Origin: Mesaphorura yosii | Lineage: Eukaryota > Arthropoda > Collembola > Poduromorpha > Tullbergiidae | DNA length: 64,000 bases | Direction of reading: 5' to 3' | Assembly (NCBI GenBank): GCA_009869945.1 | Contig: WIXG01000001.1 | Coordinates: 62,001 to 126,000 of the forward strand | Shown here: piece after piece, positions 1,106 to 23,209 of the stretch | How the letters are laid out: each line of letters opens with the position of its first letter | Numbering within the stretch: the first letter of the stretch is position 1 | Position numbers and translations under genes: made by a program | The notes under the pieces: generated by a model | The model's database searches: none | What the model was told of the DNA's origin: nothing | The model's input: the letters and a program-made list of their open reading frames with translations, nothing else

Positions 1106-4100
1106 TCACTTTTTTACTGTCTTCTTGGTGGCGCTTCCCTTCAAAGCTGTTGATTTTGACAAATGCGGTCGACGGGGTTTGACGGAAGCCTTACTCTTGG
1201 TGTGGGACATCTTCTCACCCTCCTCGACCTCCTCCTCGGTTTCTCCCTTCCTTCCTCCAAATAAGCGCCCTATTGCAGAGAAGATGCCGCTGCCACCACC
1301 ACCAGCGGCGCCCTCTCCTCCTCCGCTTTCGGTGTCCTTCGCCTTCTTTGCTGCTTGCGGTTCAGCATCTTGAGCAGTCGTCTGCAGAAAGAAATATGTA
1401 ATGTCTCACAAGGAGACGGTACAGGCTGTCCGATTCAAAATCGACCCAAAATTATTTTCGTGCTAACTTATGACCTAAAACAGTCAGAAGTGTGCCCTCA
1501 GTTTACACAACGCTCAAAGGAGCCAAAGTTATTGCAAAAGAGTCTTTGATTCCGTGCATTGAAATAGGCATTAAAAAAACATTTTGTTTGTAATTTTATT
1601 TCATGCCATTTGTTTGTTACTATTTTGTTTATTTTAAGGGAGCGGTACGTAAAAATTGTTGTTTCCCATAAGGAATTGCTGATTTCCACATTTGTGAAAA
1701 TTCTTTTTGCAATAACTTTGGTTCCTTTGAGTGTTGTGTGAGCTGAGACCACTTTGCGGATTTCAGGGCAAAGGTTATTACCCAAAAATTTAGGACCGAT
1801 TTTGAGCTGGACAGCCTGTACCGTCTCCTTGTCAGTAATTAGTATTGTGGAGTCCCACAGCCCAGTCAATTTACATCGAGAATATTTCCAGATGCTCCAA
1901 ACAAGTTTCGCTGTGTGACTTGTGCGAATATGCGATCGTTCTTGAGCTCGTCTCGCACTTCGGCTCCATTGTCAATTTTGTTAAGCTCGTTGTAAATCTC
2001 TTGTTTGCTGTAAAACGGAAGTTGCTCGATCATCTGAATCTAGCTTAAAATAGAAATCAGCATACTTAAACGTTCCGTGGACTTTATTGTAGTCTCTCAT
2101 TGCTTTGAGATCTTCCTTCCAGAATCGATTCATAGTTTTTCGGGTAGTGTGTGGAGCAACTTCCTTAATCTGTCGAGTCAAATGACAACGGGTGAACGGC
2201 ATTTGCGGATGAGGTGGGAAAGAGACCAAACCTTCAGAAATATTGCGCCAACACACAAAATCAACGCGATGTTAACTACGGTCAATCCGAAACTACAGAT
2301 GCCCATTATCGCGAACTCCATGGCCACATTATTCGGGCAATAAATGGCCTCCCGCCCACGCGTATGGTCATCCACTAGCTGTCGTGTTTCAGCGTGATTC
2401 CCAAGACAGCTGACGGTTGCGTACTCACCGGAGTGAATGGCGTGGACGAAGGCGACTCCCCACTCCATGCCTGGGCAAAGTTAAAAGTGCAAAACTTTGT
2501 CAAAGACATTTATAATGCACCTTCAACCGGATGTATTCATAATACCTGCATTGACAGCAGGTGGCAACAATGACGCGGATATCGCTACTCCGACGAGGGA
2601 CCCCGCGTTACCAGCCAAAATACTCAAGGCGACGCCAGCACCACTTGGAATGGCGACAAATGCACCTGAAATGAGAGTAGCAAGCCATTGAGCGAGAGCA
2701 AGTAAGCACACGATTAGACCGGGTACCGTCAGGAGTCCGAAAGACACGATTCCGAACTACTTCCAATCTACGATTCGATTCGGACTTGTGACTTTCGGAC
2801 TCAAGTACGGTTGGCCTGAACGACCATTCGGACTGGGAGTAGTTCCGAATCGTGTCTTTGGGACTCGTGACATATAACCGGTTAGACTATACTCACCTAC
2901 TATCATTCCTCTCAATTGTGACCGTGCTTCCATCTCCAACGTCGGCCATCTCTCTATTTTTGCCCACGGGCCCTCGAATGGATGCCAGGCCACCGAAACT
3001 GAAGGTTCAAAACGCGTCAAATAAAATCTCCGTATTATTTGCTGTAGTTGTTTGTGGATTTATCAAGCGATGTCACCTCCAAAAACGAATCCAACGAGGA
3101 AACAAATGCAGATGCCCACCAGCTCGCCTATAACTCCTGTCTTAATAAGCTTCTTGTCTTTAATCACAGCGCCGAAGCATCCGGCTATGATTGGACCCAT
3201 CAGAGGCGAGATCAGCATACTTGCAACAAGATTAACGGAGCTGTTTTCGAGTAATCCGAGTGCCGCGATAACCGCGGCGATATTGATCAGGACAATGTAG
3301 TCAAACGTGATGACCGCGTTGTTCTGCACTGATTGGACCACTTGCGCTACTGTCAGGCGTGATTTTATTGACGCAATGAACTTCGACCTGAATGTGTTCT
3401 TTTCCCTGGAGTACAAATCGACGGTGAGAAATCATCCACGGCTTATTGTCTTATTGCAATCCTCACTCTTTATTATCAGATTCTCCGAGTAACTCTTGTT
3501 CCTTTTTCTGACGCTCCTCTTGATGACGGTTGTAATACACCACAGCAGCACACACGCTTCATATTGAACAATTATAATAACACCAACGTCCACAATAACA
3601 ACTAACGTCACTGGCTTTTCTTACCTCAGCGTTGATTCGTATTTTATTCCAATTCCTAAAGCCGTCATGCTATTGATAATCGCCTCTGAGCGTGACGCGG
3701 CTACAGTGAATGAAACCTGCGCGAAATTCCCGTCCACTGAAGTGGACCACGTTGCGTCGTATATCACAAATCTCTTCAAACATTCTTCCAAGTGCTGTGA
3801 ATAATTGGGTAACCTAATCAGTCAGGTGTAAGGTGAAGGATTGGGAAGTTTTGATCTCACCTTTTCGAGGTACGTGTTGCTGATGGCATCTTCAATGAGT
3901 TTCTGCTCTATCACTGCCGAATCGATGCTCTTCCGCTTGTTCTTATCAGCGTCCTTCACTTCGTCTTCGGGATAAATCGCCATCGAGTCCTTTGACACGA
4001 CTATATTCACTTTCCTGCCCTCCGCGGTGGCTTCGTACACATCAACCGTTGACACAGCTCGGGTTGGCAGAAGGGAGGATGCTTCCGAAATCATCGTCCC

Positions 4101-4395
4101 TCCTCCAAGAATTTCGCCCTCGATCACTGCAGCCACTTCGGACGACTTGATTGTGCTCCGTTTTCGAGCCGTGGCTAATCCAGACGCCATATTTGTAGGG
4201 AGATTCTTCTTTGCACTAGGAGATTAATAACATGCTCAGCTCAACCTTGATTATTGATGGCTCTATTGTCTGTTATGAATGCGACACAACTCACATATCA
4301 TCAGTCTCCTGCATGACAACAATTTGCTTTTCTTTTTGACGAAGTGACACTTCATACGCTCTAGTTGGGACATTGATGTAGAAAAGAGAACCCAT
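1106..4395 (-). CDS. DUF389-family multi-pass membrane protein, 11 exons, about 675 aa
   Basis: Polytopic membrane protein of the DUF389 family, common in bacteria and patchy in animals; its biochemical role is unknown. Exons (reverse order): 4295-4395, 3861-4215, 3625-3794, 3467-3556, 3077-3405, 2897-2998, 2546-2665, 2232-2470, 2083-2169, 1875-2033, 1106-1381; these sum to whole codons. The start is an ATG at 4395. The protein has an N-terminal ACT-like half ending FTVAASRSEAIINSM. The membrane core follows: IAALGLLENSSVNLVASMLI with SPLMGPI, then FVAIPSGAGVALSILAGN and SLVGVAISASLLPPAVNAG, the classic DUF389 signatures. The tail is Gly/Lys-rich. Two introns hold foldback elements. The exon 9/10 junction (donor GTCCAC) is the weakest splice. 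The gene diverges from the murE-like gene. Confidence 0.85.
1408..1832. repeat. foldback (MITE-like) element, about 140-nt imperfect inverted arms
   Basis: Lies in the last intron of the DUF389 gene. The left arm (about 1408-1545) and the reverse complement of the right arm (about 1694-1832) start with the same 24 bases, beginning ACAAGGAGACGGTACAGG. Similarity continues through CTCAAAGGA.CCAAAGTTAT near the inner ends, with substitutions and small indels. A loop of about 150 bp separates the arms and there is no transposase. A TA dinucleotide lies just outside each end region, so a TA target duplication is possible but not certain. Confidence 0.75.
2728..2871. repeat. short palindromic foldback element, 37-nt arms
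   Basis: Lies in intron 6 of the DUF389 gene. Arm 2728-2764 is nearly the reverse complement of 2835-2871, with about four mismatches in the core AAAGACACGATTC.GAACTA. The 70-bp spacer repeats the octamer TTCGGACT three times. It would form a stable hairpin in pre-mRNA. Confidence 0.75.
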
Positions 4396-5191: not shown

Positions 5192-6853
5192 ATGAAATTG
5201 ATTAGCCTCGATCGCATTCTTGTGTCTCTTCCGGAACTTAAACTACAAAGGAACTCGAATGGAGAAGAAATTGGTGTACCCGAGGAAATTTTACTGTCGG
5301 GACTTACAAACGATTCAAGAAAAGTAAAGCGAGGTTACATTTTCGTTGGATTGCCTGTGTCCACCTCAAGTTGTAGTTCTGATCCAGAAAGACTGCAAGA
5401 CTACATAGAAGATGCAATTTGTAGAGGTGCTACAGCTGTGATAGTGGAAACCAAGTGGTTTCGCATCCTAGAACACGCGCGGGTGCCTGGAATAGCTTAC
5501 CTAACAACACCCAACTGCTTCAAAACACTCTCCGATTTATCTATTTTGTTTTATCGGTCGCATCCTCGGTGCCTCATCGCCGTGACCGGCACCAACGGGA
5601 AAACATCCACTGTGTCTTTCGTGCGACAAATGCTCGGGCATCTTGGTCACAGAGTCGCTAGCCTGGGTACACTTGGATTGCAAGCAGAAAATGTACCGGA
5701 ACTTGATTCTCCAGTGGCTGAGTTTGAAAGTGGAAACACGTCATTGTACGCCCCTGACTTCCATCGTTGTGTGTACGCATTGGCTGAAGAGTACGCGGTG
5801 GCGTGCTTGACATTTGAGGCCAGCAGCCATGGGCTGAAAGAATACCGAGCTCATGGAGTGAAAGTGCAGATCGCCGTATTCACAAACCTAACACAAGACC
5901 ACTTGGACTACCACCAGGACATGGAGGACTACTTCAAATCTAAGTGCAGACTATTCAGCGACTTGTTAATTGATAGTGGAGTTGCCTTTCTGAGTAATCG
6001 ACTCACTTCTGAGCAGATGCAGATCGTCCGTGATATATGCACGAGAAAACAGGTGAAAGTTTGGATCTACGGTCAAGACAGGGGCGACTTGTACTTCAAA
6101 GTGAACAAAACTGTTGCCGACGCTAGCGTCGTGTTCAATTTATGGGGAAATGAGCACTCTCTTGCCAGCGACATCCTTCGAAGGTTTCCAGTATTCCAGA
6201 TTGAGAATATTCTCGTCGCATATGGCGTTGTTGCCTCATTGCACCTGTCGTCGATGCTGTCCACATCTGAGTTGACACGGAGCCTAGATAAACTACTGAA
6301 GGAGTTGCCAACATTCATAAAATGCGTGCCTGGTAGGATGGAATACATCGGCACCTCTCTGCCATCACTGGGAAAAGTATTCGTGGATTTCGCACACACG
6401 CCGGACGCTTTGGAAATTGTGTTACGTGGCTGTCGTGAGTCCCAAAATGCAGAGCGAGACAGACTCATCGTAGTTTTCGGATGTGGAGGAAATCGAGACG
6501 GGACAAAACGATGCAAAATGGGAACGGTTGCAGCCACATACGCATCACACATTGTCGTCACAGATGACAATCCAAGGAAGGAAGATCCGGGTCAAATACG
6601 AAGGCAAATACTTGAAGGATTATCCGATTTCATATCTGAGGCAAGCGCAGGAAGACGTGTCAAACACGAAGTGCACGAGATCGGCGACCGGAGAAGCGCG
6701 ATTCGGTTTGGGATTGACTGTTTGCAGGCTGCAGCAGACATCTGCTTGGTCGCCGGAAAAGGAGCGGAACAGTACCAAATAATTGGCAACGTGCGGCATG
6801 AATTTAGTGATAAACAAGCTGTTATTGATTTATTGAAAGAAATGAGACAGTAA
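5192..6853 (+). CDS. murE: MurE-type UDP-MurNAc-tripeptide ligase, intronless, bacterial origin
   Basis: Homolog of UDP-N-acetylmuramoyl-L-alanyl-D-glutamate-2,6-diaminopimelate ligase, the ATP-dependent enzyme that adds the third residue to the peptidoglycan stem peptide. 553 residues versus about 490-500 in bacteria. Visible motifs: TNDSRKVKRGYIFVGL (39-54, UDP-MurNAc side), P-loop TGTNGKTST (132-140), EASSHGL (209-215), FTNLTQDHLDYH (230-241), YFKSK with the likely carbamylated lysine (K251), GRME (381-384), VDFAHTPDALE (398-408), FGCGGNRDGTKR (429-440), DDNPRKEDP (458-466) and AGKGAEQYQI (521-530). DNPR is the meso-diaminopimelate-type signature; the usual GKGHE reads GKGAE. There is no intron, frameshift or obvious targeting peptide. 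Flanking genes are multi-exon animal genes. The motif style (RQMLGHLGHRVASLGTLG, EASSHGL) is reminiscent of alphaproteobacterial MurE; this is inference. Confidence 0.95.
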   Translation: MKLISLDRILVSLPELKLQRNSNGEEIGVPEEILLSGLTNDSRKVKRGYIFVGLPVSTSSCSSDPERLQDYIEDAICRGATAVIVETKWFRILEHARVPGIAYLTTPNCFKTLSDLSILFYRSHPRCLIAVTGTNGKTSTVSFVRQMLGHLGHRVASLGTLGLQAENVPELDSPVAEFESGNTSLYAPDFHRCVYALAEEYAVACLTFEASSHGLKEYRAHGVKVQIAVFTNLTQDHLDYHQDMEDYFKSKCRLFSDLLIDSGVAFLSNRLTSEQMQIVRDICTRKQVKVWIYGQDRGDLYFKVNKTVADASVVFNLWGNEHSLASDILRRFPVFQIENILVAYGVVASLHLSSMLSTSELTRSLDKLLKELPTFIKCVPGRMEYIGTSLPSLGKVFVDFAHTPDALEIVLRGCRESQNAERDRLIVVFGCGGNRDGTKRCKMGTVAATYASHIVVTDDNPRKEDPGQIRRQILEGLSDFISEASAGRRVKHEVHEIGDRRSAIRFGIDCLQAAADICLVAGKGAEQYQIIGNVRHEFSDKQAVIDLLKEMRQ

Positions 6854-6883: not shown

Positions 6884-8919
6884 TTACGAAGCGAGAATTT
6901 CAACTGGCTCAAGCACGAACGCCTCTGCCTGGAGCCGCTTTCTACGTTTTTCTTCGGTGATTTTCTCCATTGCGACTCGCTTCATCCGTTCATCTCGCAA
7001 CTTGAAGAATTGCGTTTGTCGAGCCAGAATCCGTTTGTCCTTTATTCCCCGCTTGATGCAGAAGCGAATATAGGCCATGCGTAAATACTGTTCGATGTCA
7101 GGGTACATTGTGATGTCGTTCAGTGTCTCATCGTACTTCTTGATGATTTTCCCGACTTCGTCCGGCCTCAGGGGCTTGCCTTTTGTCTCGTAGTGATCCA
7201 CGAGGGTTTTGAGAACGGAGTAGAGCGCAGTGCTAAATGCGTTGCGGTAAGAATTCTTCTTCTGGATGAAGGATGAATTTCTCGCGTCCAAATCCTGATT
7301 GAGTTGTCGATCCCTTTCCGCCTTGATGAACCAATTGAGTCGTCGCCAGTAGAACGGTTTGCGAACCATGTACAGGCGATAGAGCACGATTCCAACTTTC
7401 ACCACAAGCAAGCAATGGAAAATCACTTGAGCTTGGATTATGGGTCCCACGTTGCCATTCTTCGCATTGAACCTGGCATGACAATGACGAAGATTAAATG
7501 AATCGATGAATTTCGCATTCACTTAACGGAATTGAGCATTCAGCACTGCTTGGCTTACCTGGCGCTAGTAAATGCTGGAAGTGGAGCCAGGATGCAAAGC
7601 CACAATTGTGTCTTTAGCCAGTAGGACAAAAACCTCCAATTACTCCGTCGCAGGGTGAAGATGAGGTTGACAGAATTGATCATGCTAACACAGTAGTAGA
7701 AGACTTCAATCTGGTACGGGTGGATGATAGACTCATTGCAGTTGAGCTGCTGCTTTGCTCTGAAGTACGTCATCCACATTTGGTAGGTGTAGATACGGAA
7801 GAGGATGTAATACGTGAGCACGTAATCGTATAGACCGACGAGCACGGTGGTCCACTTGACCACGGTCGCAAAAAGGGACGTTCTTTTGATCCCGTGATGA
7901 TAGGACGCGTGAATTTTGTATAGCTCTTTTCGAACGCTCTTCGGTGCGTAGCAGTCAATGCACTCTTCCGACTCCGAACTCGAGTCCCAGTTTCTGGTCA
8001 GCTTGTGGCACACGCGCTCGTGACGACGAGCTCGAGTGACGGCGGCTTTAATGATGGCCTTCTTTTGGTAGTTCATGATTTCCAAGGGCCCGTACGCAGA
8101 GTCAAGTTTTCCTTCGTGTTCCTTCTTTGCCCGGCTCAGCTTCTGCTTAATGGTTTCAGGAGGAAATTCATGGTACTTGTCCAGCTTCCGATACTCGCTC
8201 TCTTCGGCATGTCGACTGAAATCGAATCCACTCAGAGCCTCATGTATTTGCTCCTCAGTAGTTTCCTCCTCCGGCAGGTCGGAAATGTCGTTGGTGAGCG
8301 TGATGGCTTTCAGAAACCGTTTGACCTCTTCGGTTTTTTCAGCCTCTGACTTTTTTGGCTTCTTGGTACTTTCTTCTGTCGAGATCGGTCGGGGTGTTCT
8401 TGGTAGAGCTTCTTCGAGCCTCACTGCAGGTTTGGAGCTGGGCGTTGGATTTGGTTTGGATTTTCGAACCGGACTTCTGCCTGTTCGCTGTGCGGTTTTG
8501 ATCCTGCAAACCGAACAATCACCTGCAATAATAATTTTAAATAAATAATAATTTATAAATCAACTTCTTCATTGGCTTAGACATTCTGGGCTGGCTAGCC
8601 CCTGTTGATTTGCTGCGTTTTCTCGATTTCCGCGATGTATTTGACCAGCGCTGTGTTTTCTGGTCCGAAGACTCTCGTTGCTGTGGTCCAGGCTCCAGTG
8701 GCTCGTTTGCGTCCGTCGAACTACCACCCAACTGAATGTTGTAAAGCGAGTCAAACACGGATTTCTTGGTAACATTTCTGTGGAAGAACGTTCATTCAAT
8801 AATTCCAATCGCACTTATTTATATGCTTATACGAGAAAGCCGGAGAACTTTCTACGAGACGGAACTTACTTGGTTTTGTCGCCATCTCGACTCTTTCGCC
8901 CCTTCTGGTTTGAACTCAT
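6884..8919 (-). CDS. unrecognised multi-pass membrane protein, about 598 aa, 4 exons
   Basis: Exons 8870-8919, 8565-8777, 7559-8503, 6884-7472; phases match and the total is 599 codons. I do not recognise the family. The first ~300 residues are charged and low-complexity (Lys/Glu-rich, SDQKTQRWSNTSRKSRKRSK). Then come hydrophobic stretches compatible with about four to five membrane segments (around VVKWTTVLVGLYDYVLTYYI, EVFYYCVSMINSVNLIFTL, TQLWLCILAPLPAF, AQVIFHCLLVVKVGIVLYRL) and a C-terminal helical, Arg/Lys-rich cytoplasmic tail. The first ATG in good context is at 8919; an upstream in-frame ATG at 9084 exists but a likely acceptor (TTTGTGCAG) lies between them. The stop is 30 bp from the stop of the convergent murE-like gene, so the two 3' UTRs must overlap. 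Confidence 0.8.
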
Positions 8920-9636: not shown

Positions 9637-12600
9637 CTATTTGCTAGTGTTAATAATGTCTAATGCATTTGCAATCTTCATCGCAGGTCCATACGGGAAG
9701 CCGTAGCTCAAAATGTCATGCTGCTTGAGCAATAGGAAGGATTCTCCGTCGAGTTTGTGTTCGATGATAAGCCGTTGGGACACGCCTGCCGAGCAGCCAA
9801 CCTTCACCACAAACGCAGCCACCTCTTCGACGCCCCATTTGGACACGATCGACGGATTCAAGCCAACGACTAGTTTATTAATTCCTTGAATGTGTGCGTC
9901 AAAGTTGGGTGGCAGTTCTTTACCAGGCTGTTCTACTCCTGCTGCCTGGCCGAATGTTATCTGGGGTGATGCTTGTGGCGTCGCGAGTGCCGCTGATGTT
10001 GGGGGCAGACTTTGGTTCGGTGGAACTTGAGCAGTTGAATCAGTCAGCTTATTGCTCTGACCTTTAGCCCGCGACCTTTTCTCTCTTCTGTTTCGTCCTG
10101 CTGCACTGGCTGTTTTTGGGGCTCTGCGCGATTTCTTTGATGAAGTCGGGGTTTCTCCATCGCCCTGCGCTGTAGCTGGGATTTGGACCTCTAAATTTGG
10201 TTCTGCTGGCATTATGGCTTCGGAAATTGAAAAGTCCGACTCTTGCACGGAGGACTTTCTTAATTTCTTCCGTGGTGGTGCTGACGTTGTGGCGTCAGCG
10301 GTTGTTTGTTCTGGCACCGTTGTGCTATCCTGATCGACGGACGCTCGTTTACCGCGCTGGCTCACACGTTGTGGTGGTTTCCTCTCACGCTTCTCGGATG
10401 CAGTAGACGATCGCTTTCCTGATTGTTTCGTCTGACTTTTGGTTCTTGAAGCATTCGAAGAACGTCGCGATCCGCTCTTTCGTCTTGCCGCGGGTTTCTC
10501 AGGCACAGCAGGCTGGGCATTAGCAGAAAGAAGTCTGTCGCCTAGAATAAAATCTGTCAAGTAATGTGCATCCGCATAAGGACAGTTCAGTTCTGAATCA
10601 TGAGTCGGGAACTTTGGGCCATCAATGTTGCCGATCCCAAGGCAGCCGAATACTGGACACTTTTTCTTCTTCCAGTAAGATGACGTACTTGGAGGTGGAG
10701 GCGGCTGCAACGGATGTCTCGTTTCTGCACACCAGCCGATGGGATGAATATCTGGCGACAGTTCGTACACAGGATAGTCGTACTTCGAGTCCCAACCATC
10801 AAAATGGATTGTTATGAAGTGACAATCGACTTCAGCGATGGTCGCCACCCGAATCAGCGACGGAGTCCTTTTATCGACGCATTCGAGTTTCATTCCCTTC
10901 CTAAACTTGACGGGCGCCAGCGGTTGAAACAATTTCGAAGGCAAAGGCACAGAGTTTGTCTCCCTCAAGTACTCAATCCAGACAAACGGTCTTCCAGTGT
11001 CTCGCTCATCACCCCACTGCGGAGGAACCAATTCTCTTCCGTTCGCCTCGCACCAGCCGACGGGATGAATGAATGGCGATGTTAAATCGGTCCAGTAGTC
11101 GAACAAATTATCCCACGAGTCAAAATGGATTAGGAATCTGTCACCGATAACATTTCCCACTGTCGCTACACAGATGTAGTTAATGTTCTTCAAATCGACT
11201 GCCTCCAGTTTCATTCCAATCTGAACTTCTGAAGTATTCTCTAGCGGTACATCCTCTTTTACGATAGCAAAACACTCTCGAGGAACAGGCGTGGCGTCTT
11301 CCTCCACAATGAACTGGTGCCAGTTGAAAGGCTTTCTCTGGTCACAGCCCTTGCTGGCCGGAGGCCCAAGCAATTCTTGTCCGTGATCATCGCACCATCC
11401 ACATGGGAAAATGTCCGTACTGTCGGCGTTAACCCAGAAATCGTACACCTCAGCATATCCAGTAAATCTAAGCCGGAGCCGGAAGCCCAGAACTTCCATT
11501 ATGTGGACGACACAAAACAGACTTGGGTGTACGGGGTCAATTGCTTCCAAGACCATGCCGACTTTGAATTGGGAATTTACTAATGGCATTACTGGTTGCT
11601 TGAACATTCTGCCTGGGGCGGCCTTCGAGTTCGTTTCTGCTAAATAAATGGCCCAGTCGAATGTGCTTTGAACTCGATGTAAGTACTCTTCCTTTCGCAA
11701 CATTTGTTGCGGATTTTGACCATGCTTCGACTCCAGACGCCCGTGTCCTTCTCTTGAAGTACGTCTTTGGTTAGGAGCTGTTGAACGTTTCCTCATAGTC
11801 AGCGACGCCCTTTTCCTGTGCTTTCGCGGAGGCGGCTTTTGTCCGGACGTTGCATTTGCCTTTGCTTCGTCCTCGTCTTCACTTCTCGCCTCAGGATCAG
11901 ACGCTCGATCTTCGATTCTAAGCTCAACCACATTTTGCTCGTGTGTTCCAGGATTTTGTGAATGCCCAGCTTGCATGAACTCTTGCAAGTTCACATTCAG
12001 TCGAGGTTGTGGCAAAAACTGTGGGACAATTGTTTGGCCTGTTTGAAGTTCGATGGGAGCAATTGTGGTCTTTTTAGCGTAAAATACTGGTGGCGTGTTG
12101 GGTTCCAATTTTATATCGGCTGTCGAAGTGAGGATTGCAGAGGTTGAGTTCTCAAGTGATTTCTTCTTTGCAGCTTTTTTCTTGCCCGCGTCCTTCTTTT
12201 GCCCAATCAACTCCATCCGTTGATTTTTGGTCTCCTCTGCTGCTAACATTTTCACAGTGCGCCTGCAGATTGGGCTGCAAAACTTGCCGTCGATGAAGCT
12301 TGCGACTTCTCCCAAAGTAGCACAGTTTAAGCAAAGCGTTGTCTTTACGGTTGTTCCAGTTGGTTTGGGTTTTGGGGTCTTGCGGAATATGACTAGCGCG
12401 TCAGACTGTGAACTTGACGCTGGTTCCGATTGCCTTGGCTTGGGATTTCCTGGATTGCCTTGTGTTGCCAATGCTTTTCTAGACGGTTCGGAGTGCCTGC
12501 TTTTCTTCTCGGGACGTTCACCCACTGGCTTCGGTCTTACAAATTCGTGCGTTGAGTCAGACTTCACGGCCTAGTACGGACAAGAACCAGTTAATTATTA

Positions 12601-16179: not shown

Positions 16180-17103
16180 TTTGAGGAGTTCCAATTTCCA
16201 ATTCGAACCAAATTATATGGCGATTTTGGGTAAAAAATCCAATCGTGGTTTCTTTACTTCTTTGATATCTGGCTTTTGTCTTCTCTTGTCGAAGTCTTTA
16301 CCTGGCGTGAAGTCAGTCCTTACTCCTTTTAGTTAACACTTAGAAGGAATTAAATATGCTTCTCATTTCACTAGTCACTAATTACCACCTCTTTGCTTCC
16401 TGTTACTCGGAACGTCCTTCAAGAATTACGAAGTGATGTGAGATCATCGTCTGCAAATAGAAAGAAAAAACTGCTCAACACGGCTCATATCGTATACGCA
16501 AGTGCAGCAGGCTCGATTATCGACTTACCGCGAGCCAACTCAAACCTGGAGAGCTTCTCAAGAATTTGCTCTTTTGGCCTGGCTTCCGAATTCTGAACCA
16601 AATCTATGCACAACAACTATTTTTACAAATGAACAATAACAATGAATGAAAGTAAATCAATGTTGTCGTGGGCCAACTTGAAAAGGTCAAAGGTCAACAT
16701 TCACGAAATGTTGGGACGTGTGCAAGTAGCAGCAGGTGGGTGTGGATATTTTGAAACCAGGTTGGTGACGAGCAGGTGAAATTGTATCAATGATACCTAG
16801 ACCGGTAAACGTGCCAGGGATTATTGTGGCACTGGCAGGTTTGCGACAACTCATCGACGCACACCATGTCAGCGTCAAACTTTCCTCTTCTGTTACACTT
16901 GTGGAACTGGTCAAGTACCTCCACGAATTACACGAATCAACACACTTATCATCAGACCGACATATTGACTCTGACTACGTAGATTCTCAAGCACTTCAGA
17001 GTTTGGAGATTGTTATATAAATTGAACAATGAAGCATGCACGACTCAAGAGAGTAACAACTCCCGAAGCTCGTAACGACTCCTGATACTCCCTTCCTGAC
17101 AAA
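16180..17103. other. intergenic region, no supported gene
   Basis: Upstream regions of the divergent Cys-rich and MOXD1-like genes. No open frame with coding character. Confidence 0.4.
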
Positions 17104-19509
17104 ATGCGGAATTACTTGCGCTTCATCTTTCTTTGCATCTTGTTGGCTTCTTTGGAGCCTTCAAGTTCGTCACCCATTTTAAATTTCCCCAAAATTGACG
17201 GCGAATACGAAAAGCTTGATCAAGATGGGAAGTATTTGCTCGACTACAGCGTCCTAAATTCAACCATCACATTCCAGGTCCTGGTCCAGACGACAGGGTT
17301 TGTGGGGTTCGGCTTGTCTACAAATGGACGCATGGCTGGTGCTGATATTGTCATTGGAGGTGTCCTTCCGGATGGGACAACCTATTTTGAAGTAAAACTG
17401 ACTCGAACAAAGCTACGGTAAAACAATGCACCACTGTACTTATTTGGCTTGCGAACTGCAACTTTCACAGGACCGTCACGGCGTTGGTCAAACTCTTCCA
17501 CCTCTGGATCTGGTTCAAGACTGGGATTTGCTGGACGTTTGGGAGAACGCAACTCACACATACCTGCGTTTCTCGAGACTACTGGACACTTGTGACAAGG
17601 CGCAAGATTTGCCCATCACTGTAACATAGCTCGTATTTCCCTTTTCCGTGATTATCAGAGTCTCATCTTCGTGTTGGACTGTGTACTTTAGCGTGACACG
17701 GTGAGCATAATTTGGTCTTACGGCCTGTCGGACACAATTTCGTACCATGGCGAGAATCGAGGAATTTCTGCCGCCATTTTGTTGGATCCACCGATGTCCC
17801 CATTCAAACCTGAAAAGTAAGGTGCCAACGAAAAGGTTTGTTTGCGACCTATTGACAGTTGAGTTTGCTTTCAGGTATAAACTTTGGCGAATGACAGTTG
17901 ACTATGAAATGCCAGCTCAAGACACGACTTATTATTGTACGACACAAAGAAGTCCGTTCCTGGCAGGAAAACATCACATTGTTGCTGTAAGTGATTGGCA
18001 TGAACACAGTCAATGAAGTTTAGAAAGCCTAATGAAAACTGATTGCGTCAATTCCAGTTTAATCCCATGCTCGTCGGAGCGGATGCCATCAAGCACACGC
18101 ACCATTTTATCGTGCACAAATGCCGAGCCCCAAACGGGCAAGACCCAGACGAATACTTCAGACCTTACTTGGAGGGACCTGGCGGTGACTGTTACAACGG
18201 GTCAACTTCAGCGAACGTGCCGTTACGCGATTGCAAAAGCTACCTATTCGTTTGGGCGACTGGAGGGAAGGTAAGCATCGTCGTGCGCGCAGCGTGATTT
18301 CTTAACTAAACTGCCTATAATTGTGCAGACAATGGTACTTCCTGACCATGTGGGCTACCCGATCAGAGAAAGCGGAGGATATGATTATTTCATGCTGGAA
18401 GTGCATTACGACAATCCAAATGAACTAGCAGGCAAGAGATTCGAGACGGGTCTGGAAATTTATTACACGGACCAGTTGAGGTGAGAATAGCAAAAATATG
18501 CCGCGTTTCACACATTTCCTGAATTGAACACTCTTTGCTTTTTACAGGCCTAATGAAGCGGGCACTCTAACGTTGGGGCACAGGGAAATGTATTCGCTGA
18601 CTATACCACCCAATGTGACAGACTTCATGGTCGTTGGCCACTGCAGCTTAGAATGCTCCAGAGCACTTCCCGCTGGTGGAATTAATGTGTTCAATATTCT
18701 ACTCCACTCGCATTTGGCAGGTGAAACCCCAGATACTTGAATATCCGAACCAAAATTGTGAATTCGAGCTGTCTTATTCAAACTCAGGCCGAAAATTAAA
18801 GATAAGGCACTACCGCGACGGGGTCGAACTGCCGTGGCTGGCCGTGGACAACAATTACGATTTCGACTTCCAACAAAATCGGCCGCTGAACACCAAAGGA
18901 AAAATTCTTCCTGGGGATCATCTGACATATGGTGAGAAGATCTTGAACGGGAATGCAGAATATCTGCTGGAATCCGAAAATTTATACTCAATTGATGTTT
19001 TACTTAGAGTGCACGTATGATTCAACTGTAGCGAAACATACGATAATTGGCGGACTCTCATCCCAAGAAGAAATGTGCTGTACTATCCTCGATCAACATT
19101 AGAAATTTGTCAGACTGAATTTCCTCAAAGTCAAATCCATGACGAGTTTGGAATTGGAAATGTTTTCTGGTAAGTACTTTCATCATACTGATTTGATTTG
19201 AAGTGGTAGTTTGCAGCAAATGTAGAATATTGGTAACACAGGCCCAGTATTGGTGACCCGATCATCATGAATCCGGCAAACATGTCTGGGAAAACATACA
19301 CGGAAGTTTTGGACACAATGGTTTCGTGGACTCCTGAGTACCTGGCTGAATACCAACAGAAAGCACGGTTTGCAGAGCAGATAAACAGATGCATCAGCCG
19401 ACCAATCAATGGAAATGGAAGCGTTTTCAAAGAAGAAATTCTGCCACGGGTCACTTATCCCATAATTGACGACGAGTATGTCCCACCAGATTCTTGCGCT
19501 TCTGTTTGA
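17104..19509 (+). CDS. MOXD1/DBH-like copper monooxygenase, 10 exons, frameshifted in exon 9
   Basis: DOMON plus copper type II ascorbate-dependent monooxygenase, the DBH-like (MOXD1) family acting in the secretory pathway. Exons: 17104-17391, 17471-17620, 17692-17816, 17875-17986, 18058-18270, 18329-18480, 18548-18720, 18788-18931, 19008-19169, 19242-19509. Signal peptide at residues 1-22, DOMON domain with TTGFVGFGLSTNGRMAGADI, then monooxygenase N-domain with the CuA His pair (HTHHFIVHKC) and C-domain with CuB ligands HSHLAGRKLK. The Met-ligand region reads GGLSSQEEMC. Directly after it (19073-19082) the frame shifts: upstream frame hits TAG after eight codons, while YYPRSTLEICQ continues in another frame. 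Exon lengths total 1787, i.e. 2 mod 3, consistent with a small deletion of about 13 nt. Pseudogene, allele or assembly error are all possible. Confidence 0.85.
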
Positions 19510-20004: not shown

Positions 20005-21470
20005 ATGGCATATGTAAAACGCTTGACACTGACATTGGATGGTCAGCTCGAAACCACTTCAAGCGCTGGCATTCGCTGCATCAGGGAACATCCATATCTC
20101 ATGTATTGGAAATCCTTCTTTAACTTTTTCTACTACCTTGGTCTGATTCCGTACCGATTCGAACTCGGTTCTGACTCGGGTGAGTGGGAGATAAGAAGAA
20201 ATGCGTGGCAAAAGGTACGTCCAATCCGCACAGGCAGATTAAACACACAGTTATGACCTCCCTTCTGTCTTTATTGCAGGCATTTTGCTTAATTGGCACC
20301 GTCTTGTTCCTGGATTTAGTTCACATTAAGTACTTCCGAAATGAGTACCACTCAACTGAGCACGTGACCTTCTACCTGGAGCTGAACAATGACGTCGCGT
20401 TGCTGGTGTACCTGGTTGGGGTCTATTACACGGTGTGGGGCAAGGCCGAGGCTTTCCTGAAGGTGTTCAAACTCGTTCAGCAGCAGGAACTTCAAGGGGT
20501 CAGTCGAATCCTCGCCCCGAACTCACCTGATTGGTATAGGATAAAATATCTGGGCATTCGTTTTCTTCCCGGCGTGTTCATTCTGTACGCAATCGTCACT
20601 CAACTTCAAAACATCCCCGAGCTGAAATTCGAACAGTTTGAAGTGCTGACACAGCATTTGCTTTTAAGGAACACGCCAGTGAAACTCCCGGCTTTAAATT
20701 TCGCCGTTTGTCTGCTCACCTTTTATTTCGGATTCATGTGCTTTATGCTGGACTGTCTCTTCATTATGAATGCGTTATTGTACAAAGATTTGGTCTCGAA
20801 ATTCACAGATGAGTTTCGAATTCGGGTTCGAGAGTGCAGAAACGATTCTGACCTGAAGTCCGTGCTCATATCGTATCAGATTCTGAAGCAGGCAGTGCGC
20901 CTTATAAATGACGCCACAGGATGGGCCAGTCTCGGCTTTTTCTTCGGAATCCCGCCATTTGTCCTGGAGATTTTGGGAGTAATTTCTAATCTGGACGAGG
21001 TCCGCATGCTTGAGGTGATAAGGATCCTCGGAGTCAGCACTTACATTGCTGGCTCGACAGTAATCATGGCGTCATCACACAAAAAGGTTCGCGAGAAATC
21101 GGCTATATTTTTGCATTATACCCTTATGTTTTATTTGCTTTCTAGATTGGATCAGTTTACGATTGGTTGACTAGAGGATCCAAGTACATAAAAACGAGCC
21201 ACCAGCACTTTCATCTTTTTCTGCATGATCTTGCGTTGAACAACATCTCATTGAGTATTGTCGAAGGATGTCACGTCTCGTATAGATTTCTTGGATCAGT
21301 AAGTATTGTGAACTGTGCAGGTCAGTTTTGAAGTATTTATTTGGATGCGGGAATTTTTCCATCTGTAGATAATGGGTTTGATTGTCACGTTCCTGATATT
21401 GCTTCTGCAGTTCCAAAGTCCAGGCTCCAGTAGCGTGTTTCAGATGAAGAGCTCGATAATTGCCTGGTAA
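20005..21470 (+). CDS. gustatory receptor-like 7-TM protein A, about 423 aa, 4 exons
   Basis: Exons 20005-20214, 20280-21086, 21146-21298, 21369-21470 give 424 codons including stop. The chain has about seven hydrophobic segments and ends with the arthropod gustatory/odorant-receptor TM7 signature, here IMGLIVTFLILLLQFQ (family T-Y/F-hhhhh-Q-F). The last intron sits just before TM7, at the conserved position shared by the family. It is paralogous to the next gene (both share YWKSxF and the HQHFHLFLHDL/PRFFHMLINDL block). The donor of intron 2 (AAG|GTTCGC) is weak but is supported by alignment to the paralog. It probably acts as a ligand-gated cation channel in chemosensory neurons. The specific ligand cannot be inferred. 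Confidence 0.88.
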
Positions 21471-21874
21471 ACTCAGAAAGGGTGGGGTATATTACAAAGA
21501 AGAAAGCAGCATTAATTTAATATTTAGTCATTCAATAGATGAATTCTATTAGTTAATGGATGTCGCTGGAAAATTATGCAATGCAAATTGCAAATCTTTC
21601 TATTTCGTCGTAATTTTGATATGTGCGCAGAGCTTCTAATATGCTATAAATGTCAACTTTCTTTCAATAGTGAATAATTTTCTGTATTAATGAGCATTGA
21701 TCATCAGGTAATACATCCGTGTCACTTCATTTGTCAATGTCAGGCCCTGCCTACGAAAAGAAGATATCTACACCTTATAAACATGTATATGAACCGAAAT
21801 AGAACGTTGATATCAAACGAAGCATAGGTTGAAAGTGAAACTCGAACCGGAAAAAACAGCCAAAATTCGTCAAA

Positions 21875-23209
21875 ATGTCTGAGCATTCCTTCCTGTGTTA
21901 TTGGAAGTCTTATTTTGACTTGTCCTACTACATCGGGTTCGTGCCTTACAAATTCTCACTAAATCGGGAAACTGGTCAATGGGAAATGCACACAAGCAGA
22001 CTACAAAAGACGTTCGCGTGGGTTTTGTTAACTATCTTCATAAATATACTTCGTGCGAAATATTTCTCCGGTCACAGTAGACCTTTATCCATTATAACGT
22101 TTTACATTATCTTGTTTGAGAATGCACTCCTCCTTTTGTACGTGGCGACGTTTTATTACACAATTTGGTGTAAATCGGACTCAATTCTCACCGTTTTCAA
22201 CTGGATTCAGAATAATTTGGCCAAGGACAAGCTCAAGTATGCACAGTCCCCGTTATATCGAGATGTATTGATTCAGAACTTGGCCAAAACATTGCCCATG
22301 TTATTCGTATTATTTGCCTTTGTCACACAACTCGAGAATGTGCAAAATTTCGACTGGACTCTATTAGAATCATTGGCGCGAGACATATTTCTTCTGAATC
22401 CTGACATCAATATCCCAGCCTTGAACCTTCTTGCCTTCTTCTTCATCGTCTATCTGGACATCTTGCTGTTCTCACTGGATTGCCTCTTCATCATGACAAT
22501 CCTCTTCTACCGACGACTCGTACAACATTTTGTGGAAGAATTCGTGACGCTTAACCCTAACCCAACTTATTGCAACGATGCCGCGTTGAAGACCGTCTTC
22601 TTTGCCTATCAGCGACTCAAATGCGCTGTCATCCTCATCAACAATGCATGTGGATTGATTCATCTCACATTCCTCTATGGTTGTATGCCATTTCTGACCG
22701 AACTCGTCGCTGTGGCCCCCAACTTTCACAAGAAGGGCGTTTTCACGATCGCGAGACTGGTTTCACTGATAACGTACAACACTTTGGGGCTTACCACGCT
22801 CGGAGCGTCACACGCCAAAATCGGAAAATTGTACAACTGGCTGCTTGCAGGCGTAGAGTACGGGAACGGGGATCATGGTGATCAGGTTTCGTCGTCGTCG
22901 CCTAGATTCTTCCACATGCTCATCAACGATCTGCATCAGAACAATGTTTCTTTGAGTGTAAATGGAAAGAGCATCACGTTTGGGTTGTTGGGATCAGTAA
23001 GCCTTCTTCTATCTTAATTCTTGCTCTATAGCTAAGCCATAAGTAGATCATTTTAGTCTAATTCCTAGGCTGTTTTGAAATTGACTTTTTTCGGTTTGCA
23101 GATGATTGGCCTGATCTTGACGTACCTCTTCCTCTTCCTCCAGTTTCAAGATCCAAATGCCGTCAGTATTTTCGAAGAGAAGAATTCAAACACAGGGTTC
23201 GTTTGGTAG
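21875..23209 (+). CDS. gustatory receptor-like 7-TM protein B, about 409 aa, 2 exons
   Basis: Exons 21875-22996 and 23102-23209 give 410 codons including stop. Tandem paralog of the receptor 400 bp upstream, with the same start style (YWKSYFDLSYYIGFVPYKF) and TM7 motif MIGLILTYLFLFLQFQ. It keeps only the intron before TM7; the two internal introns of its neighbour are absent. Start ATG in AAAATGTC context. Family role: taste/odour detection in sensory neurons. Confidence 0.9.

Follow-up and report, generated by a model that had tools for sequence, protein, structure and literature searches.

The assembly of Mesaphorura yosii was found to carry intact frames for MurA, MurB, MurC, MurD, MurE, MurF, and Ddl, i.e., seven genes located on six contigs by profile searches, and we regard it as nearly certain that they represent a transferred and constrained gene set. 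Our best explanation overall, which we consider reasonably probable, is that these are transferred nuclear genes for the soluble steps of peptidoglycan precursor synthesis, retained to provide for the wall of a bacterium living inside host cells. The murE-like gene lies in the window, by which we mean the whole stretch of 64,000 nucleotides analyzed (C1:62001-126000 of a 93.0-Mb assembly with 1,127 contigs).

The MurE gene in the window

An intact murE-like gene of 553 codons was identified at 5192..6853 (+), in a single frame without internal stop that starts with an ATG in AGCACCATGA context. The original prediction had described a MurE frame of this position and length, which was confirmed, and the five MurE hallmarks quoted there are all present in the translation. 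The features of the gene are as follows:

5192..6853, + strand, murE-like gene with a DNPR (mDAP-type) motif (family profiles, structure matches, model)
5585..5611, + strand, P-loop TGTNGKTST, residues 132-140 of the translation; T132, G133, T134, G136, and K137 invariant in 28 sequences
5942..5944, + strand, Lys251, invariant in 28 sequences
6566..6577, + strand, DNPR motif, residues 459-462, invariant in 28 sequences

The deduced protein matched the curated family TIGR01085 (murE) with 351.9 bits (cut-off 257.3, E 5.8e-105) and the narrower equivalog NF001124 with 414.7, below the cut-off of 476 of that model; in Pfam, PF08245 and PF02875 were both above their cut-offs. Since a frame of 553 codons fits a curated family at such an E-value, a match by chance was excluded. 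Used as a query against the assembly at E <= 0.001, the protein retrieved a single match, namely itself (C1:67192-68850). Among solved structures, the top match was the bacterial chain 7d27 (193.8 bits, E 4e-56). An AlphaFold2 model based on a 20-row alignment (pLDDT 86.9, pTM 0.89) had E. coli MurE (1e8c, E 3.8e-40) as its best PDB match, and the predicted fold is that of a three-domain Mur ligase. Besides the P-loop lysine K137, the middle-domain residues E209, H237, and K251 are invariant across 28 aligned sequences; their roles are presumed from those in known Mur ligases, and Lys251 is taken to be the lysine that is carbamylated in the bacterial enzymes. In bacterial MurE, the DNPR motif goes with meso-DAP as the third residue, and, judged by its motif D459-R462, the M. 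yosii enzyme is of the predicted meso-DAP type.

The seven genes and their surroundings

A search of the assembly with the Mur ligase middle domain revealed four genes, namely MurE (C1), MurF (C439), MurD (C331), and MurC (C49), and further family searches added MurA (C87) as well as MurB and Ddl, which are both located on C2 at a spacing of 86 kb. Overall, six of the seven genes passed the cut-off of a curated model: apart from MurE, these were MurA (TIGR01072, 422.4, cut-off 392.7), MurB (NF010480, 329.6, cut-off 259), MurC (TIGR01082, 382.1, cut-off 335.1), MurD (TIGR01087, 305, cut-off 211.95), and Ddl (NF002378, 261.2, cut-off 243). MurF remained under the cut-off of TIGR01143 (276.9, cut-off 288.6). 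MurA shared 43% identity over 417 residues with E. coli MurA, with its motifs visible, including the cysteine of PGGCNIG. All genes but MurC consist of one uninterrupted frame, extra upstream exons being possible; open codons without an ATG extend upstream of MurF (39) and MurD (42). MurC harbors a 74-base GT..AG intron within its P-loop codons, the removal of which restores the loop GTHGKTT, and its unspliced frame meets a stop at codon 169. A purine is found at position -3 of the start in six of the seven mur/ddl genes. In total, murA-F and ddl are all present in an animal nuclear genome, as described for the mealybug type of gene set.

An obvious N-terminal hydrophobic stretch was detected in MurB only among the seven proteins, so that import signals are not evident. 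In MurB (L009:718-1821 on C2), hydrophobic residues 20-38 precede the family match, which begins at residue 67; judged by its sequence, this stretch could serve as an anchor or in targeting of the protein. A second match to the Ddl family scored 41.4 bits (C551:20306-20914) and was treated as a different ATP-grasp gene rather than counted as Ddl. It belongs to a 345-aa frame in DNA of 53% GC, which we take to be ATP-grasp-like, followed by a presumably methyltransferase-like frame.

The surroundings of MurE are made up as follows:

3066..4190, - strand, left neighbor, presumably one gene comprising the open pieces 3066-3431 (matching DUF389) and 3822-4190 (ORFs, Pfam)
6884..8559, - strand, right neighbor, convergent, GTAAGC donor in the gap between its open pieces 6884-7522 and 7558-8559, without Pfam match (ORFs, Pfam)
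9640..12570, - strand, at 2.8 kb from MurE, exon of an animal MBT-repeat protein with a C2HC zinc finger (MBT 275.7 bits over three stretches) (Pfam)

The right-hand gene had been placed 30 bp from MurE, and indeed 30 bases separate the MurE stop from its convergent end. For the left-hand gene, a distance of 0.8 kb had been given, which does not hold, as the ATG of the open exon is found at 4190, 1,002 bases upstream of the MurE ATG. Further along, Pfam named a UCH protease gene 10 kb and a topoisomerase I gene 35 kb away from MurE. The window also contains a DOMON-domain frame (17086-17418) and two similar-looking single-exon frames without Pfam match (20184-21167 and 21839-23014), which in our view resemble multi-pass chemoreceptors and may be collembolan receptor-like.

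A scan of 30 neighboring frames resulted in 16 with a Pfam match above or near the cut-off and none for the remainder, and Pfam-named animal-type genes were located near six of the seven genes, all but Ddl. These were TRAPPC9 (about 2 kb) and a carbonic anhydrase (about 11 kb) for MurF, V-ATPase subunit a (4 kb) for MurD, an Ufd2 core (2 kb) and a cytidine deaminase (240 bases) for MurC, a CBM_14 chitin-binding exon (3 kb) and a piece of an aldehyde dehydrogenase of borderline significance (5 kb) for MurA, and a myosin tail (5 kb) for MurB. Near Ddl, the two frames scanned (L122:3238-3636 and L121:2821-3756) had no Pfam match; this gene shares contig C2 with MurB. The CBM_14 exon had no match among solved structures. 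Close to MurD, a frame on C331 (L113:2895-3260) matched PRiA4_ORF3 with 74 bits, a family named after a plasmid protein, and it is possible that this is another transferred gene. The GC3 of the mur/ddl genes ranged from 0.45 to 0.71 compared to 0.42-0.60 in ten host coding pieces, with MurB and Ddl above this range and the other five within it; for comparison, a Wolbachia locus displayed 31% GC.

Based on the CBM_14 exon near MurA and the animal gene content, the host is likely an arthropod. The description of the locus as an arthropod nuclear one holds with respect to its nuclear, animal-type neighborhood, and with respect to the arthropod it is plausible on the two grounds just named. Horizontal transfer into a nuclear animal genome, as proposed from MurE, gained support by the six further intact pathway genes on five further contigs. 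All of this evidence stems from the assembly, which leaves bacterial contamination or misassembly to be weighed. We rejected this explanation, which we consider hardly credible, because of the intron in MurC, the animal-type neighbors recognized for six genes, and the spread of the seven genes over six contigs. The inspected neighbor stretches of the mur genes contained 0 N, a bacterial cluster is not seen (even MurB and Ddl are 86 kb apart, and the others lie on separate contigs), and the GC3 of five genes is inside the host range, the Wolbachia locus having 31% GC. Also, the PBP, DapF, Alr, and MurI families are absent from the assembly.

Origin and constraint

Relatives were collected by an alignment scan with MurE, from which the best 80 of at least 595 matches by query similarity were used, a sample weighted to Alphaproteobacteria; dcw stretches were taken from 30 hand-chosen genomes among those best 80. 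After ORF hits of <60% of the query length and duplicates per genome had been dropped, the bacterial rows were reduced from 105 to 78 (MurE), 97 to 75 (MurF), 27 to 25 (MurC), and 19 to 18 (MurB), and all rows were kept for MurD (28) and Ddl (16). By rank, 57 of the 78 usable MurE rows were alphaproteobacterial, a share biased by the similarity-ranked choice from the best 80 of at least 595. For nine loci, the alphaproteobacterial label came from clustering (L035, a MAG, L058, L060, and L104) or from the taxonomy of the record (L022, L023, L169, L170, and L172). Outgroups in the trees covered several phyla and no plants. In addition, reduced trees were calculated from 33 of 90 MurE rows and 28 of 78 MurF rows, hand-picked to balance the groups and excluding Pelagibacter, which formed a long branch in the MurE tree.

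The phylogeny against bacterial sequences that had been suggested for MurE put the animal protein on the alphaproteobacterial side of a branch with a support of 100/99 (33-row tree, no plants). The same was found for MurF (100/98), MurD (100/100), MurC (100/96), and Ddl (99/97), and more weakly for MurB (91/91), whose best tree separated the alphaproteobacteria from all other rows, including the animal one (42/31). The MurA tree, consisting of nine rows, did not resolve the placement. MurE grouped with Wolbachia, Holosporaceae, and two further rows in the 87-row tree (SH-aLRT 98), and with Wolbachia, Holosporaceae, and one further row in the 33-row tree (93/85). MurF was likewise placed next to Wolbachia and Holosporaceae, with a support of 84 among 76 rows and 93/92 among 28 rows, and MurD was 46% identical to the homolog from Wolbachia of Fragariocoptes setiger. 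The trees of MurC, MurB, and Ddl showed no Wolbachia/Holosporaceae placement. In AU tests, a position of the animal row outside the sampled alphaproteobacteria was rejected for MurD only (p 0.005), and it was not rejected for Ddl (0.099), MurC (0.148), MurE (0.32), and MurF (0.38). In several trees, at least eight rows per gene were long-branched or odd in composition, and long branches may pull the animal row toward Wolbachia and Holosporaceae. The Mur ligases of these two groups were the nearest rows by path for MurE and stood beside MurF, with one row each sampled; in contrast to recent Wolbachia insertions, however, the divergence seen here is deep. From the sequences, we infer that the genes derive from intracellular alphaproteobacteria, perhaps from one Rickettsiales-like lineage, and a single donor for the set is possible.

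Among viral contigs, no close Mur relatives were confirmed. A plastid-type MurE (PAP11) was not favored either, as seven bacterial chains outscored the best plant chain among the solved-structure matches. Plant PAP11/MurE-like proteins are likewise MurE-fold proteins in eukaryotes, according to the accessible part of PMC9434261. The four plant MurE-like chains scored 90-148 compared to 193.8 for the bacterial 7d27, the score of S. aureus MurE (126.5) falling within the plant range.

The end branches of the animal proteins were long, with 0.87-3.2 changes per site. Conservation was counted for six proteins, leaving out MurA, and near-invariant bacterial columns were largely kept, i.e., 33/33 in MurB (18 bacteria), 39/40 in MurC (25), 31/31 in MurD (28), 57/62 in MurE (78), 25/28 in MurF (75), and 35/44 in Ddl (16), compared to a match of 16-24% at columns <50% conserved. 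Since conserved columns persist over long branches, we assume selection on the set, and the pattern fits long purifying selection, in agreement with the retention under selection that had been proposed for MurE. That the genes are unexpressed relics on their way to decay is highly improbable: all seven frames are open, and the near-invariant columns have been kept despite end branches of this length.

Exceptions to this conservation bear on a different explanation, according to which each enzyme has been recruited to a different reaction outside peptidoglycan synthesis, be it an amide ligation or a transferase reaction. In MurE, five of 62 near-invariant residues are changed, including His525 to Ala in GKGHE, and changes affect nine of 44 in Ddl and three of 28 in MurF; these changes and the long branches would be in line with such repurposing. 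However, substrate motifs survive (DNPR in MurE and the cysteine of PGGCNIG in MurA), and the joint survival of all seven pathway steps would be hard to explain, so that we judge repurposing to be very unlikely.

Proposed role and comparison with known systems

Searches for further steps of the pathway gave no match in the assembly for the PBP transpeptidase (PF00905), DapF, the C-terminal domain of alanine racemase (Ala_racemase_C), and Asp/Glu racemase (Asp_Glu_race); this search runs exon by exon, and heavily split or intron-broken genes may escape it. Thus, the genome-wide search that the original prediction had suggested for murA-D, murF, ddl, and dap recovered the mur genes and ddl intact, but no DapF. 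The MraY family (PF00953) had two matches on one contig, and the single locus examined is, as we recognize it, DPAGT1-like. For the MurG family (PF04101), 36 matches were obtained; of the two loci examined, we take the best to be ALG13-like and the other to be an ALG14-ALG13-like fusion. None of these loci was accepted as a host MraY or MurG. The remaining 34 PF04101 matches, which for the most part are confined to approximately positions 70-158 of 166, are presumably UGTs. The fusion (C144:108149-108589) lies in a 1,459-codon open frame and is presumably joined to a further glycosyltransferase-like region.

Since PBP, DapF, Alr, and Asp/Glu racemase had no match and neither MraY nor MurG was recognized, the pathway seen spans only the steps from UDP-GlcNAc to UDP-MurNAc-pentapeptide, and the role of the set was narrowed accordingly to the soluble precursor stage. 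From the lack of PBP and DapF matches it also follows that the assembly contains no bacterium with a DAP-type wall; possibly its sequence was removed by filtering, or there is no such bacterium.

We infer a symbiont from the gene set, and a role of the set in supplying it is somewhat probable. The seven nuclear genes would together encode the soluble stage of precursor synthesis, in which MurE would add meso-DAP to UDP-MurNAc-L-Ala-D-Glu in an ATP-driven step. Either the host genes would build UDP-MurNAc-pentapeptide, or the enzymes themselves would enter the resident bacterium. The latter would carry out the membrane steps (MraY, MurG, flippase, and PBPs) and would provide D-Ala, D-Glu, and meso-DAP, the usual makers of which (Alr, MurI, and DapF) had no match in the assembly. 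As a result, the host would control the wall of its symbiont, like the mealybug Planococcus citri. More tentatively, a further animal lineage, distinct from the mealybugs, may have taken the complete soluble stage from one intracellular alphaproteobacterial lineage, possibly the ancestor of the present symbiont, which would put the wall under nuclear control and create an organelle-like dependence of independent origin.

The host might also use UDP-MurNAc-pentapeptide or parts of it for itself and live free of a symbiont, e.g., in immune signaling or tolerance, as a decoy for bacterial enzymes, or as a step of secondary metabolism. In favor of this, the PBP transpeptidase was without match, neither MraY nor MurG was identified in the assembly, and other metabolism unexpected in an animal is present, such as an AROM-like fusion. 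However, as Alr, MurI, and DapF are without match, the product could not obviously be made without a bacterium or the diet. We know of no animal use of UDP-MurNAc-pentapeptide, and we consider a use by the host itself unlikely. The AROM-like gene (C146:160070-161408 onward) contains introns and joins EPSP synthase to shikimate kinase; its open frame has 989 codons, and a weak shikimate dehydrogenase match follows further on.

Coming back to supply of a symbiont, nuclear mur genes of bacterial origin in mealybugs had been put forward as a precedent in the original prediction. The same seven steps are encoded in the nuclear genome of P. citri, murA-F and ddlB being listed among its transferred genes in the accessible text of PMC5664097. 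In the available sections of further reports, the host MurF of P. citri, a protein of 56 kDa, was located in the cytoplasm of the symbiont (PMC12176269), and the last precursor steps and the flippase are left to the symbiont (PMC5664097, PMC12176269, PMC9116674). Gene sources in mealybugs are described there as diverse, with Bacteroidetes for some enzymes (PMC5664097, PMC7154730) and with Rickettsia and Wolbachia among those tabulated for 22 genes of P. citri (PMC5664097).

These likenesses raise the explanation that the set simply represents the published genes of the P. citri type and that the genome is that of a scale insect, which overlaps in mechanism with our best explanation and is, in our judgment, quite unlikely. 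In its favor, the list of murA-F and ddlB is identical as far as that text goes (PMC5664097), an alphaproteobacterial origin is compatible with Rickettsia and Wolbachia among the sources (PMC5664097), and MurF, with a predicted mass of 56.2 kDa, is close to the 56 kDa of the mealybug protein (PMC12176269). On the other hand, compared by description, all resolved genes of M. yosii point one way, to alphaproteobacteria, whereas the mealybug sources given in the available text are diverse (PMC5664097, PMC7154730). MurF from M. yosii has no signal-peptide-like N terminus from its first ATG, upstream of which 39 codons are open. P. citri has DapF, for which the M. yosii assembly gave no match, and an assembly of 93 Mb with an AROM-like fusion is, to our knowledge, not scale-insect-like. 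Altogether, the host is seemingly no scale insect, and its symbiont, unlike that of mealybugs, is deduced from the genes. For a mealybug host, the finding would already be known.

Other insects offer partial parallels. Aphids also carry bacterial cell-wall genes in the nucleus, namely the transferred ldcA, amiD, and rlpA (PMC8689515, PMC9116674, in the parts available). While these act on the finished wall or its fragments, the M. yosii set would build the precursor. In ants, single transfers of ddl and murA have been described (PMC13320244, accessible part), i.e., isolated individual genes of the same pathway, compared to the full set in M. yosii. In the open literature found, no complete mur set was reported for any animal apart from mealybugs, a weak negative given that subscription papers were mostly outside its scope and sources were partly accessible. 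A full soluble-stage set in an animal nucleus is thus known from one insect group, and the case of M. yosii is likely an independent and mostly alphaproteobacterial one. If this is true, a reduced symbiont not yet observed is to be expected, and two lineages could be compared for the order in which genes were taken over. A second independent set next to that of the mealybugs would then show that symbioses can arrive more than once at a takeover of wall synthesis by the host.
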